Positions 15,742 through 23,893 of a stretch of 64,000 nt of DNA are shown piece by piece; positions within the stretch are counted from its first letter, which is position 1; every line of letters begins with the position of its first letter. Source of the stretch: Meiothermus sp. (GTDB lineage Bacteria > Deinococcota > Deinococci > Deinococcales > Thermaceae); NCBI RefSeq assembly GCF_026004075.1, contig NZ_BPIK01000001.1, forward strand, positions 1,962,041 to 2,026,040, in the 5' to 3' direction. The notes beneath the pieces were generated by a model. It searched no databases. It saw only the letters and a list, made by a program, of their open reading frames with translations, and had not been told where the DNA came from. The position numbers and the translations under genes are program-made.

Positions 15742-15846
15742 CGGTTGCACCATAAACAGGAATCCGGGGGTTTGGTTCCCCCGGATTTTGCGTCCCTGAC
15801 TTGGTGGAGCTGAGGGGATTCGAACCCCTGACCTTCTGAATGCCAT
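15742..15846. repeat. attL: left direct repeat of the integrated element
   Basis: These 105 bases match 23789-23893 with two differences (15760 and 15772). The repeat holds the sequence CGGTTGCACCA, a terminator hairpin and the 3' half of tRNA-Ala up to the anticodon loop. The tRNA here is only a fragment, because sequence beyond 15846 diverges. This marks the left junction of an element integrated by a tyrosine recombinase. Confidence 0.9.
15761..15789 (+). terminator. terminator after the metal ATPase, inside attL
   Basis: ATCCGGGGG, a seven-base loop and CCCCCGGAT are followed by TTT, 30 bases past the ATPase stop. It faces A residues on the other strand and so can work in both directions. 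Confidence 0.8.
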
Positions 15847-16067
15847 GTGGATTTTGGGGTTTTCAAGGGGTTCCACAGGGTGTCAAGAGATGCCAGCGAA
15901 ACATACTCCTGGACGGCATTCACGATTATCTGGCACTCACTTATATCACCTTGGAAATCTTTGGAAAAGCAGCGCGGTTGCACCACGGTTGCACCAAGAT
16001 TTGTTGCGCCATTGCAACAGTCGTGGAAGGCACTTTTGGCTCTTGGACTTTGGTGGAGAATGGTGAA
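15847..16067 (+). other. non-coding left arm of the element with tandem CGGTTGCACCA
   Basis: This stretch between attL and the first element gene has no convincing gene. At 15975-15996 two copies of CGGTTGCACCA stand in tandem. The same tandem is at 23778-23799 and a single copy is in attL at 15742. They are placed as arm-type integrase sites would be. Confidence 0.6.
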
Positions 16068-16799
16068 ATGAAACAGACTATTATGGAACCCCTAGAGGGA
16101 GCATCGTCAAATCACCACCTTTTGTGGCTCCTGTATTTTCGCCATGGCCTATTCATGGTGCACCCTGAAGCCGAAGCTGACCTACGGGGGTTGGTGGAGA
16201 GGTACAGGGCCGAACAGCCGCGTCTACTCCTCGGTAGCTGGGTTCCCCTTTTGGACTGGCAGGTGAAGTACCTGTACGGGACGCGGGAGGACGGGGGGGA
16301 TGTGTGGATTTACGAAACCAATCCCTATGTTTACGAAACCGCTATGGCCTACCTGGAAGCGTGGGAAAGGGGCGGGGAACCACTCCTGGACAGGTATGGC
16401 AGCAGGCGGTATCTCAACGATGAAAACAAGTACCCGATGATTGAAGGGGTGGTGCTCGACCCCACCTGGATGCTCCCCTCTGACCTGGTGGAACTGGTCA
16501 AACTGGACAGAAAGCACAAGGCTCAACCCCCACTCACAAAGTACAAAGAGAAGAAGATTCTCGAGCGTGCCGGGGATGAGCTCCAGCGCCTTTCCAGAAG
16601 CCACAGGAAAGCGCAGCAAAAAATTGAACTGGTGCACTTCGAGTTGTTGGCGATGTACCACCACAAAGGGATGGGTTGGGTGGATATACAGACTGAGCTC
16701 AGCGACCCACGCTTTGAAGGGAGAATTGACGTGCTGGGCGAGGATGCGATTCGGAAGGCCGTAGAGCGAACCGCAAAGCTACTCAAAATCAAACTGTGA
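16068..16799 (+). CDS. element protein of unknown function, 243 residues
   Basis: The ATG at 16068 has GGTGGAGAA about ten bases upstream and begins MKQTIMEPLEG. The frame is open further upstream, but that part shows no start with a ribosome site and runs into attL. The protein is rich in Trp, Tyr and charged residues, has no membrane segment, and ends in a basic helical region (AIRKAVERTAKLLKI) that could bind DNA. I do not recognise the family. It is the first gene of the integrated element. Confidence 0.65.
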   Translation: MKQTIMEPLEGASSNHHLLWLLYFRHGLFMVHPEAEADLRGLVERYRAEQPRLLLGSWVPLLDWQVKYLYGTREDGGDVWIYETNPYVYETAMAYLEAWERGGEPLLDRYGSRRYLNDENKYPMIEGVVLDPTWMLPSDLVELVKLDRKHKAQPPLTKYKEKKILERAGDELQRLSRSHRKAQQKIELVHFELLAMYHHKGMGWVDIQTELSDPRFEGRIDVLGEDAIRKAVERTAKLLKIKL

Positions 16800-16829
16800 T
16801 ATAGCACACTACAATGGATGTCCGGTTTG

Positions 16830-16853
16830 GATGGTAGCCCCTGGTCTACCATC
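16830..16853. promoter_or_regulatory. inverted repeat before the HTH gene
   Basis: GATGGTAG and CTACCATC form a perfect 8-bp inverted repeat with an 8-base spacer, ending nine bases before the ATG of the small HTH protein. It could be an autoregulatory operator or a translation-blocking hairpin. Confidence 0.5.
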
Positions 16854-16861
16854 GTGGGCGT

Positions 16862-21509: not shown

Positions 21510-21713
21510 ATGAAGGGAAAAAACCTAAGGAAAGACCGGCTACCTAAGCCTGTAAGGTTGGAACTTTTGGGGGTGCAGGAACTTCAAGCGGGTGAGGTGA
21601 CGCGCACGGTGCGGGTGCGCGGTCAAAAAGCCATCATTGAGGAGTTTGCCAGACTTACACCCATTGAGCGGGGTCAGGTAATAGAGCGGGGAATGAAGGC
21701 CACTGGGGTTTAG
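21510..21713 (+). CDS. small protein, possible ribbon-helix-helix regulator
   Basis: The ATG at 21510 begins MKGKNLRKDRLPKPVRLEL; an in-frame ATG 15 bases upstream lies inside the palindromic operator. The TATAAT just before suggests a leaderless transcript. The 67-residue protein is basic at the N-terminus, then has a strand-like TRTVRVRG followed by two helices (QKAIIEEFARL, PIERGQVIERGMKA). This order resembles ribbon-helix-helix repressors. It may bind the palindrome before it. The fold is inferred from sequence pattern only. Confidence 0.55.
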   Translation: MKGKNLRKDRLPKPVRLELLGVQELQAGEVTRTVRVRGQKAIIEEFARLTPIERGQVIERGMKATGV

Positions 21714-22295
21714 CGGGCTAAACAAGATTGGTGAGGTGCTATCATGCCGAAAAAATCCAGCAAGCGGGCAAATGGTCACGGCAGCAAGCCGGTACAACGG
21801 GGGAATTCCTACACGATGCAGGTTACGCTAGGCCGACGCAGGGACGGTAAACTTGACCGCCGCAGGGTCACGGCCTCCACCCGAGAGGAGGTTGAGCAGA
21901 AGGCCCGCGAGCTTCAGGTGCTCTACACCAAGGGCATGATAGCTGAGCCCGACTCCGTGACCTTCAAGGAGCGGGGTGAGCTTTGGCTCAGGCGGAAGGC
22001 CCGCACGGCCCGGCCCAAGACCCTGGAGGGCTATGGCTGGCTGCTAAGGCGGTACGTGTATGCCCACCTGGGGGAGCGTAAGGTACAGGCTTTGAGGCCT
22101 CCGCACATCCGGGGGTTCTACGAGTCCCTGCTGGAGTCGGGGATGTCGTCGGAGACCTTTCGGCAGGTGCGTTATCTGGTACGGGCCATTTTGGAGGATG
22201 CCCTGGCGGACGAGGTTGTAGCCCGCAACGTGGCCCACGGGGTGCGGGTGGAGTTACCCAAGACCCAGCGTACCGGCCAGTCCTGGAGCCCCTTA

Positions 22296-23160
22296 GAATC
22301 TACAAACCACCTTACCCAAATCAGGCACTGCAGTTATGTTTAGAGCATGAACCGCCGTGCTTACCCATCGGACGTCCGTGATGAGGAATGGGCTCTGGTG
22401 CTGCCCTATTTGACCCTCGCCCCGCTGGAAGCACCCCAGCGCAAGTACGACCTGCGCGAAGTGTTCAACGCCCTGCGCTGGATGGTTCGAACCGGTGCTC
22501 AGTGGGACTACCTGCCCCACGACTTCCCACCCCCCCATATCGTTCAGGCGCAAGCCTACCGCTGGATGAACCGGGGGGTCTTCGAAGACCTGGTACACGA
22601 CCTGCGCATGACCCTGCGAATGCTCCAGGGCAAAGCCGCCCATCCCAGCGCTGCCATCTACGATGCTCGCACCCTACAGTCCACCCCGCAAAGTGGGGAG
22701 CGGGCCGGATACGATGGGTACAAACGACGCAAGGGAAGCAAAGTTCACCTGGCGGTAGATACCCTGGGGCATCTGCTGGCCCTGGTAGTAACGGCGGCCA
22801 GTGAACAGGAACGGGCCCAGGTGGGAGCCCTCAGTCAACAGGTGCAGGAAGTGACGGGGGAGCAGGTGGAAGTGGCCTTTGTGGATCAGGGTTACACTGG
22901 GGAGGAAGCGGCACAAGCGGCAGAGGCGGAAGGCATCGCCCTGTGTGTGGTCAAGGTGGAAGGGGCCAAACGAGGATTCGTGCTGCTGCCGAAGCGTTGG
23001 GTGGTGGAACGTTCGTTTGCCTGGACATCCCGGTTTCGCAGGCTGGCGCGAGACTATGAGCGGCTGGCTGAGACCTTGCGAGGTTGGCACTGGTTGGCTT
23101 TTTCGATTCTGATGACAGCGAAAACTGTGGAGCTTTTACGAACAGCTAGTTAGCAGGCTC
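22296..23160 (+). mobile_element. IS5-family element inside the integrase gene
   Basis: The 865-bp element has imperfect ends (GAATCTACAAACCA and GAGCCTGCTAACTA, nine of fourteen matching) and is flanked by TA on both sides, at 22294-22295 and 23161-23162. A two-base TA duplication fits IS5 relatives. It differs from the element at 1431-2360 in ends and transposase and has no frameshift. It lacks CTCGAG. Confidence 0.85.
22347..23153 (+). CDS. IS5-family transposase (single frame)
   Basis: The 268-residue transposase has an N-terminal DUF4096-type domain ([18 protein letters not shown]) and a DDE catalytic set: Asp106 in IYDARTLQS, Asp180 in FVDQGYTG, and Glu221 in VVERSFAW. The frame is intact from the ATG at 22347 to a TAG seven bases before the right end. 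It is read in the same direction as the integrase it disrupts. Confidence 0.88.
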
Positions 23161-23777
23161 TAGAGGTTAGGGCTTTTTTACAGGCTGCCACAAACGAAAG
23201 GCTGTACCCTCTGTTTTACTTGATGCTCACCCTGGGCCTCAGGCGGGGCGAGGTGCTGGGGCTACGCTGGGTGGACGTGAACCTCGAGGGGTCTACTTTG
23301 CGGGTATCGCAAACGCTTACCCTGGTGGGTGGAAAGCCCCACTTCGGGCAACCCAAGACTGAAAGCTCTCGCCGGGTGCTTGACCTCCCCCCCGACGTGC
23401 GGGAGGTGTTGTCCGACTGGAGAGCACAACAGCGGGGTGAGCGGGAGATAGCTGGGGCAGACTGGGAAGACAGCGGCCTGGTGTTCACCACCGCCCTGGG
23501 CGGCTACCTCCACCCCGACAACCTAAAGCGGGTGCTCCACCGGGTGGCAAAGCGGGCAGGGGTCAAACCCGTGCGGATTCACGACCTGCGTCATACCTAT
23601 GCTTCCCTGGCTATCAGCAATGGGGTTCCGGCGGAGGTGGCCTCAGAGAAGCTGGGCCATACCCAGGTGGCCTTTACGCTAAAACAGTACAGGCACGTTC
23701 TGGAACACGAGCACAAGGGGTATGCCCTTCCCCTTACCGACCTGCTCAGGGAGCGAAATATCCCCAAGGCTTAGGGG

Positions 23778-23799
23778 CGGTTGCACCACGGTTGCACCA
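23778..23799. repeat. tandem CGGTTGCACCA repeat at the right end
   Basis: Two copies of CGGTTGCACCA stand in tandem directly after the integrase stop, and the second opens attR. The same tandem is at 15975-15996. They are candidate arm-type sites for the integrase. Confidence 0.6.
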
Positions 23800-23893
23800 T
23801 AAACAGCAATCCGGGGGTCTGGTTCCCCCGGATTTTGCGTCCCTGACTTGGTGGAGCTGAGGGGATTCGAACCCCTGACCTTCTGAATGCCAT
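23789..23893. repeat. attR: right direct repeat of the integrated element
   Basis: These 105 bases match attL at a distance of 8047 bp with two mismatches. The repeat ends in the anticodon loop of the intact tRNA-Ala gene. It includes the terminator at 23808-23836, which here follows the integrase gene. Confidence 0.9.
23808..23836 (+). terminator. terminator inside attR
   Basis: ATCCGGGGG and CCCCCGGAT form a hairpin with a seven-base loop, followed by TTT. It lies after the integrase gene and, on the other strand, after tRNA-Ala. It duplicates the hairpin at 15761. Confidence 0.75.

Follow-up and report, generated by a model that had tools for sequence, protein, structure and literature searches.

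Our results suggest that the 8 kb element integrated at the tRNA-Ala(GGC) gene of this Meiothermus genome belongs to a family of elements in which a DUF3987 protein, a putative MCM-like initiator, uses an origin that lies directly 3' of its own gene and doubles as coding sequence of the following gene, E. We consider this reading likely. The arrangement would be that of the SaPI Rep protein and its origin, and the initiator and origin proposed here are candidates drawn from the sequence and a structural model. The window is the whole stretch of DNA that was analysed, 64,000 nucleotides long, and all coordinates refer to it.

Structure of the element

The element is bracketed by a 105-bp direct repeat and has the following features.

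15742..15846, unstranded: attL, the left repeat copy (tRNA-Ala 3' half and hairpin)
15974..15996, + strand: 23-nt sequence with an exact second copy at 23777-23799
16068..16799, + strand: gene A, 243 aa, cargo, no convincing family
16862..17122, + strand: gene B, 86 aa, Xis/AlpA-like by position and 32% identity to same-place proteins
17132..18004, + strand: gene C, Toprim (DnaG-type) primase (PF13362, E 1.8e-20)
18001..19530, + strand: gene D, DUF3987, proposed initiator helicase (PF13148, E 5.8e-86)
19511..20236, + strand: gene E, 241 aa, C-terminal ~90 aa conserved, N-terminal half from the repeat array
19543..19767, unstranded: repeat array, proposed origin, 9 exact GATTCGCA on both strands
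20233..20292, + strand: candidate remnant of a 177-aa gene that comes after E in relatives
20756..21352, - strand: gene F, 198 aa, judged by eye to be a membrane protein, without a family
21510..21713, + strand: gene G, 67 aa, small protein directly before int
21744..22298, + strand: tyrosine integrase, N-terminal part, interrupted (Pfam, PHROGs)
22299..23163, + strand: IS inside the integrase gene, ~865 bp, ends estimated from the extent common to other copies
22347-23153, + strand: IS transposase, inside the integrase gene
23164..23774, + strand: tyrosine integrase, C-terminal catalytic part (Pfam, PHROGs)
23789..23893, unstranded: attR, the right repeat copy, which completes the tRNA gene
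23849..23924, - strand: intact tRNA-Ala(GGC), the integration target

The two repeat copies (15742-15846 and 23789-23893) are 105 nt long and 98% identical, cover the 3' half of the tRNA and the hairpin behind it, and stop 2 nt beyond the anticodon bases, much as an earlier, sequence-only reading of this DNA had described them. That reading also took the whole for an integrative element at tRNA-Ala and proposed a comparison with empty sites, and the repeat, the tyrosine integrase and the outcome of the comparison agree with it. Among 16 orthologous right-flank loci (L031-L046, the window's own included), three in other genomes (L032, L034, L035) show a P-type ATPase, one repeat copy, an intact tRNA-Ala and a carboxyltransferase, that is, both flanks and none of the element's genes; in L035 the likeness to the repeat is limited to the tRNA part, and the other 12 loci have no tRNA in the adjoining DNA and are uninformative about an empty site. 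Because attL agrees with the empty site of genome G012 at both mismatch positions, it is probably the chromosomal copy. Among 18 genomes of the genus, a second near-identical (98%) copy of the tRNA-Ala end occurs only in the window genome. The 23-nt repeat (15974-15996 and 23777-23799) is a candidate integrase arm site.

The integrase had been described as split, and its N- and C-terminal parts are indeed both present, but this is not a natural split: an IS5/IS4-type element (PF01609/PF13340) interrupts the gene. The window genome has at least 25 near-full-length matches to this IS, the integrase copy included, 22 of them at 99-100%; the 25 are a lower bound, as 40 of 83 first-look candidates were scored. 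Since the IS breaks the integrase, the window copy is probably immobile by itself and incapable of unaided excision.

The replication module consists of the Toprim primase and DUF3987, as had been recognized from the sequence, and in Pfam it has no match to a Prim-Pol family. Gene D itself matches DUF3987 and, below threshold, Lipase_chap, and nothing else in Pfam (no DUF927 or Primase_Cterm). The element's proteins match no capsid, packaging or transfer family in Pfam and PHROGs, in line with the earlier claim that capsid and transfer genes are absent, and for genes A, B, E, F and G neither collection offers a convincing family. Gene A has no relatives when set against the ORFs of 17 loci. 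Gene B has no Pfam match of its own and is 32% identical to its positional counterparts in L067 and L070; the xis at this place in L011 matches HTH_17 (PF12728, E 2.6e-11). The stretch at 20233-20292 is suggestive only of a remnant of the relatives' 177-aa gene (a 20-codon match, E 0.02). Homologues of gene G overlap int by 20-23 nt in the three relatives checked (L011, L061, L064).

A family with exchangeable modules

Gene E is present at 16 loci in nine of the 50 family genomes, four of these loci being in the window genome, and in none of 27 genomes of genus g5 (presumably Thermus). The window genome has members with an uninterrupted integrase at tRNA-Met and tRNA-Val; at tRNA-Val, by the end of contig 1 (2,506,593), elements may stand in tandem. 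Its C-terminal ~90 aa are conserved at all 16 loci and are the hallmark of the family; the model of this domain (pLDDT 82.7) has four strands and a helix, and it has no Foldseek PDB match at E <= 0.001. Most of the 16 loci have in common Xis, a primase/helicase, gene E, a tyrosine integrase and a tRNA, in a mostly common order, so that relatives do carry the set as a unit, as the sequence-only reading had expected. Both att copies were found at nine of the 16, and where both ends are known, in Meiothermus/Calidithermus, the elements measure ~6-9 kb. The family has a common frame (Xis at the left; E, a small protein and the integrase at the right) and exchangeable primase-helicase modules. A comparison of L011b with L064 captures one such swap: the two are 100% identical over 621 bp at the left, have no blastn match across the module, and are 99.4% identical from inside E onwards. 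The swapped module stops at the domain border of E, and the rest is near-identical.

How members move between hosts bears on what kind of element this is. ICETh2, a small element of Thermus thermophilus HB27, is said to spread by natural transformation or transjugation. With ICETh2 as precedent (described in the accessible part of PMC7693054), the element may likewise be a passenger spread by either route: the hosts are related, integration is at the same kind of tRNA end, and no transfer genes were found. We regard this as a serious possibility, if not one that we favour.

Transfer may depend on a helper, as the sequence-only reading inferred. That the element is a PICMI- or PICI-like satellite which a helper phage packages seems to us doubtful. 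Size, the combination of Int, an AlpA-like HTH and DUF3987, and the absence of capsid genes resemble the PICMI set as given in the accessible part of PMC10803314, and L084, a viral contig of 41 kb, contains the E domain by itself. Against this, no packaging gene or helper was identified, and a 129-aa protein of the relatives, considered as TerS, has only sub-threshold HTH matches and no convincing counterpart in the window element. L084 was moreover the sole locus from the scan of viral contigs for E; its repeat cluster lies in another gene, away from the E domain, and the viral contigs hold no relative of DUF3987 from the window or from L067.

Defence cargo was also considered and rejected: ten cargo proteins from seven loci (the window, L012, L061, L065, L066, L068, L070) have no PADLOC family at E 0.01, apart from two weak matches of a single L012 protein.

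Repeats inside gene E

The 5' half of gene E is an array in which GATTCGCA occurs nine times in 225 bp. The sequence-only reading had called E iteron-bearing, and the counts uphold it: nine exact GATTCGCA/TGCGAATC in 19543-19767 against one elsewhere in the element, a concentration unmatched in 100 shuffles. Copies start in all three codon frames, and 12 are found when one mismatch is allowed. The array begins 15 bp after the DUF3987 stop and spans +15 to +240 (0 of 100 shuffles match). In relatives, too, the respective words are concentrated in the stretch made up of E and the preceding 300 bp: this region holds 9/10 copies in the window element, 7/7 in L011a and in L064, 13/13 in L070, 9/9 in L071, 10/10 in L072, 11/11 in L073 and 13/14 in L065 (11 of them inside E). 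In L012 it holds 10 of 19, the other nine forming a second array, and the L067 array is weak when judged against codon shuffles (4, with a shuffle maximum of 4). Members with a 610-aa AAA protein (L011b, L061, L068) have no array inside E; the L061 array extends across the helicase stop (L126), the top cluster of L127 is at +934, and the ORF taken for the repeat survey in L128 looks wrong.

The repeat word changes with the C-terminus of the DUF3987 helicase encoded just before it rather than with the primase. Class alpha C-termini (the window, L011a and L012; 60-65% identical) go with the words GATTCGCA, GATTAGCA and TTTAGCA, class beta (L064, L067, L069, L070 and L071; 64-95% identical) with CACTGAC, and class gamma (L065 and L072; 68% identical) with ACCCGCAA. 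The primase is uncoupled from the repeat, with Toprim in both alpha and beta and an NrS-1-type primase in L070 of beta. At third codon positions the repeat half of E is 66-93% conserved in beta pairs, above the other half of E (46-75%) and the helicase (50-86%) in 10 of 10 pairs, which are not independent of one another, and it has little codon-position bias.

Repeats of this kind could instead be operators of an element-encoded repressor or copy-number regulator. They are short and on both strands, and the small protein G is present in many members. We find this improbable, since the array type follows the helicase C-terminus and the array changes with the module, the C-terminal domain of E and the DNA to its right being constant between L011b and L064 over the compared extent. 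The array furthermore stands behind a gene, and the DUF3987 genes of unrelated elements have one there too.

DUF3987 and downstream repeats in other elements

The predicted model of gene D has an MCM-type AAA+ fold at residues 42-424 (VIA Z 18.0, 3.5 A over 265 aa), and residues 426-501 would form a C-terminal winged helix by the secondary structure of the model; the VIA rows mostly cover residues 42-424, with little structural match behind the winged helix.

The phages collection has two records that match the window DUF3987, and the plasmids collection has 39, of which 30 were listed. The survey took both phage records, 13 of the 30 listed plasmid records, four of seven and two of three records from two further searches, and nine new loci from another 24 matches, the rest of which were existing members or partial matches; partial matches (L106, L111, L112, L113) and L096, with too little downstream DNA, were left out. 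A locus was counted as positive if its strongest 8-mer cluster was unmatched in 100 shuffles and started between -8 and +150 of the DUF3987 stop. This holds for 24 of 40 loci (14 of 25 clusters at 60% identity), and for 15 of 31 (11 of 22) once the nine E-bearing members that prompted the survey rule are set aside. Some positive loci have weaker second clusters elsewhere (e.g. L069, L103). No significant cluster was found in 14 of the 40 (L093, L104, L115-L123, L149-L151), including most Legionella plasmids, all three E. coli/Citrobacter loci, Bacteroides, Rhodovastum and three of four phage records, and in two the cluster straddles the stop (L114; L147, with 1 of 100 shuffles matching). The rule is therefore not universal, or exact 8-mers miss some arrays.

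Proposed mechanism

We propose that Int would excise the element, assisted by Xis or by the small protein encoded ahead of int. DUF3987, acting as an MCM-like AAA+ helicase, would use its C-terminal winged helix to bind the short repeats that lie immediately 3' of the DUF3987 gene, and would open them and load. An element primase, of Toprim or archaeo-eukaryotic type, would then prime, and host polymerases would finish. If the repeats are at once the origin and the code for the N-terminal half of E, initiator and origin would therefore travel as one cassette. With its integrase broken by the IS, the window copy is probably a stranded member, which would move only if the integrase of another member acted on its ends. 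The interrupted integrase, the missing 177- and 129-aa genes and a gene A without relatives could also mark the element as what is left of a decayed prophage, a very improbable reading that is disfavoured by relatives (e.g. L061, L064, L067) that resemble it in size and gene order and have both att copies and a single uninterrupted integrase ORF, and by the lack of phage structural families in the scanned proteins of the window and relatives beyond sub-threshold HTH matches.

Two published observations weigh on the mechanism. PICMI115, whose 'primase' is DUF3987, is reported in the accessible part of PMC10803314 to replicate by rolling circle; an MCM-type bidirectional initiator therefore fits less well, and our confidence in the origin reading is slightly lower. 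The primase-polymerase of ICETh2 is dispensable for the circle (PMC7693054, accessible part), which we count against the mechanism.

More broadly, we think it fairly likely that the DUF3987 (YfjI) proteins encoded by mobile elements from at least three phyla are further MCM-like self-loading initiators that read 3' repeat origins, and that in Meiothermus the origin was captured as N-terminal coding sequence of E, with the result that elements exchange primase, initiator and origin as one cassette in frame with the C-terminal domain of E. In the open-access papers searched (preprints and subscription papers lay outside the search) we found no origin for DUF3987, which is encoded by phages, plasmids and islands alike and serves PICMI satellites as their 'primase'. 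Repeats placed just behind the stop codon, of a type that tracks the C-terminus, amount to a sequence rule that would make the role of DUF3987 directly testable and offer a route to the origins of many elements. The Meiothermus family would be a natural cassette-swap experiment, with a candidate origin conserved at third codon positions within a gene.

Comparison with known systems

Comparisons here are with the accessible parts of the papers cited. The literature already describes, as relatives of ICETh2, small elements of Thermales, including Meiothermus, that are integrated at tRNA genes and carry a primase-helicase module (PMC7693054), and the earlier suggestion of an undescribed Thermales family is thus too strong; what we did not find in the open-access papers searched is the branch with Toprim and DUF3987, gene E and repeats inside E. 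By description, ICETh2 is like the window family in its size (7.6-12 kb), its place at a tRNA 3' end, Int and Xis, a primase-helicase module and many unknown ORFs (PMC7693054). It has Ppol and Hel (Ppol-DUF927 in four Meiothermus) at tRNA-Val (PMC7693054), whereas the window element has Toprim and DUF3987 at tRNA-Ala, gene E with an origin-like array inside it, and no adjoining Ppol/Hel homologues.

AEP-carrying elements are likewise tRNA-integrated and include DUF3987 as a predicted helicase fused to primases; the accessible part of that paper assigns it no origin or initiator role (Kazlauskas 2018, PMC5862659). PICMI of Vibrionaceae also combine Int (PF00589), in two pieces in the window, with DUF3987 (PF13148); they have AlpA (PF05930/PF12728), average 6.7 kb, are described as lacking capsid genes, and have a small gene that overlaps int (iolg), as in the window's relatives (PMC10803314). 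They lie at fis and, according to that text, never twice in one genome, in contrast to tRNA-Ala and four elements in one genome here, with no helper known. A PICMI model without fis gives 68 matches outside Vibrionaceae (135 minus 67) (PMC10803314).

The closest parallel to the arrangement proposed here is that of SaPI Rep/ori and SCC Cch2, in which the C-terminal domain of an initiator helicase binds short repeats directly downstream of its gene (PMC7581432). The window has repeats in the same position behind a putative initiator gene. The families differ, DUF927 or Primase_Cterm/D5 in SaPI Rep and Cch2 and DUF3987 in the window, and the binding site of Cch2 is intergenic, whereas the window array lies inside a conserved gene (PMC7581432).

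Integration and distribution of the elements

The direct repeat, tRNA and gene set of the element at 15742-23893 proved to be as described in the sequence-only reading. The att repeat comprises the 3' half of tRNA-Ala(GGC), to just beyond the anticodon, plus the adjoining hairpin. The empty site sought by that reading was found in three other genomes, in which both flanks occur without the element (16 orthologous right-flank loci, own included, 12 of them uninformative). The left att copy is the same as the empty site of one relative (G012) at both mismatch positions and agrees with that of another (G016) at one, which fits arrival of the right copy with the element.

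The tyrosine integrase does lie in two parts, but the split is not a natural one, as an IS sits inside the gene. This IS has 25 near-full-length copies in the host genome, 22 of them at 99-100%, and its insertion is probably recent. As its integrase carries the IS, the window copy is probably stranded. One copy of the ~865-bp IS opens contig 1.

The C-terminal ~90 residues of the hallmark protein, E, have matches at 16 places in 9 of 50 genomes of the family (window's genus 7/18, g2 2/2, g5 0/27), including Meiothermus sp. SKYG110, Meiothermus sp. KatS3mg071, M. luteus, M. rufus and Calidithermus roseus. For nine of the 16 loci two att copies lie within the available DNA; the other seven (L011b, L066, L069, L071, L072, L073, L074) are cut by contig ends or their second copy was not seen.

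Target tRNAs of loci with two att copies
Window element: tRNA-Ala(GGC)
L061: tRNA-Met
L064, L011a: tRNA-Val(CAC)
L065: tRNA-Ser
L067, L070: tRNA-Val(GAC)
L068: tRNA-Gln
L012: tRNA-Gly

The host genome has four elements: the window element, L061 and a tandem pair of distinct members at the tRNA-Val(CAC) att (L011, 6702-18594, end of contig 1), which have ~650 bp of left end in common and differ in replication module; the contig stops within the second. Most members have, in part or whole, the order Xis, module, E, 177 aa, 129 aa, small protein, integrase. The 177-aa and 129-aa genes are absent from the window element, L012 has a different tyrosine recombinase and L074 has little beyond E in common with the family. 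The small protein ahead of the integrase lies at 21510-21713 in the window; its counterpart in L011, L061 and L064 overlaps the integrase by 20-23 nt, as PICMI iolg does, a gene reported to be required for excision in PICMI (PMC10803314). A left-end cargo ORF with ends similar by eye recurs in four members; neither Pfam nor PADLOC assigns a family to those of L061 and L066.

Left-end cargo ORF
L061 3721-4350
L066 6354-6833
L069 15558-16163
L071 4918-5622

Exchange of replication modules

The genes between xis and E are of several types.

Replication modules
Toprim primase, DUF3987 alpha: window, L011a, L012
Toprim primase, DUF3987 beta: L064, L067, L069, L071
Primase-polymerase fused to DUF3987: L065, L070
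Primase-polymerase fused to a weakly matched AAA domain: L066
Archaeo-eukaryotic primase, 610-aa AAA protein: L061; AAA frame split in L011b, L068

L011b and L064 are 100% identical over 621 bp ending just behind xis and 99.4% identical from within E onwards; blastn finds no match in the stretch that separates these two parts. On this alignment the module has therefore been exchanged, one border being the junction of E's two halves.

The repeat array and its helicase

In all eleven members with an available DUF3987 C-terminus, the 5' half of E has a dense array of a single 8-base word. The count is higher than in any of 200 codon shuffles for ten members and equals their highest value in L067 (4 vs 4). 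The word is scarce elsewhere in each element except for a second array in L012, the M. luteus tRNA-Gly element, which has the E array twice in opposite orientation (about 8617-8865 and 13292-13540). Sorting the elements by word gives the same groups as comparing the last 120 residues of their helicases.

Repeat words by helicase C-terminus
Alpha: TTnGCA-type
Beta: CACTGAC (L073, beta by eye, CACCGAC)
Gamma: ACCCGCAA

Primase type is not coupled to the word: Toprim occurs with both alpha and beta, and L070 has an NrS-1-type primase alongside beta helicase and beta repeats. In the window element, copies of the word fall on either strand and in every codon frame. In all ten beta pairs third codon positions are more conserved in the repeat half than in the helicase and in E's other half, once narrowly (88 vs 86), so the repeat half is under selection as DNA.

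In a survey reaching beyond the family we examined 41 DUF3987 loci (35 + 6; 26 clusters at 60% identity), one without downstream DNA, locating the strongest 8-mer cluster relative to the DUF3987 stop against 100 shuffles. It started at -8 to +150 of the stop, with 0/100 shuffles, in 24 of 40 loci and straddled the stop in two; 14 had no significant cluster, and at no locus among the 40 was a significant top cluster away from the stop. Minus the nine E-bearing members that prompted the idea, 15 of 31 loci (11/22 clusters) are positive. Loci of Pseudomonas, Psychrobacter, Legionella oakridgensis, Streptomyces, Paracoccus and Bartonella plasmids are among the positives, as is one in a phage record from human faeces.

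In each search the best 50 matches of the window DUF3987 model (pLDDT 86.3) were all MCM proteins or their complexes (Foldseek best E 1.8e-4; VIA Z 18.0, 3.5 A, 265 residues). Its residues 426-501, predicted as helix-strand-helix-helix-strand-strand, would form a winged helix by element order. The model of the conserved E domain had no structural match. In L084 (6289-10285), a phage-like IMG/VR contig with a repeat cluster within one of the upstream genes, the E domain stands alone behind a sliding-clamp-like gene (by eye), a hint that it may be a replication accessory.

Proposed mechanism and known systems

The sequences show integration, a family, exchange of cassettes, coupling of repeat type to helicase and conservation at third codon positions. 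In SaPIs and SCC the repeats bound by the initiator's C-terminus lie directly behind the initiator gene (PMC7581432). The element most likely works in a similar way: the DUF3987 C-terminus would bind the array that follows its gene, and loading, priming and control of excision would be further steps. The helicase is of a different family from that of SaPI and SCC and the putative origin lies inside a gene. Rolling-circle replication is reported for PICMI115, with its DUF3987 'primase' (PMC10803314), and this calls for caution over the proposed mechanism.

As to transfer, the element may be a satellite, its gene set being PICMI-like, or a passenger, as with ICETh2 of Thermus thermophilus. We do not file it with ICETh2, as it has no Ppol/Hel, with PICMI, as it is not at fis and any helper would be putative, or with SaPI, as its helicase is of another family. 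It has the look of a replicon of SaPI/PICMI type placed in surroundings like those of ICETh2.
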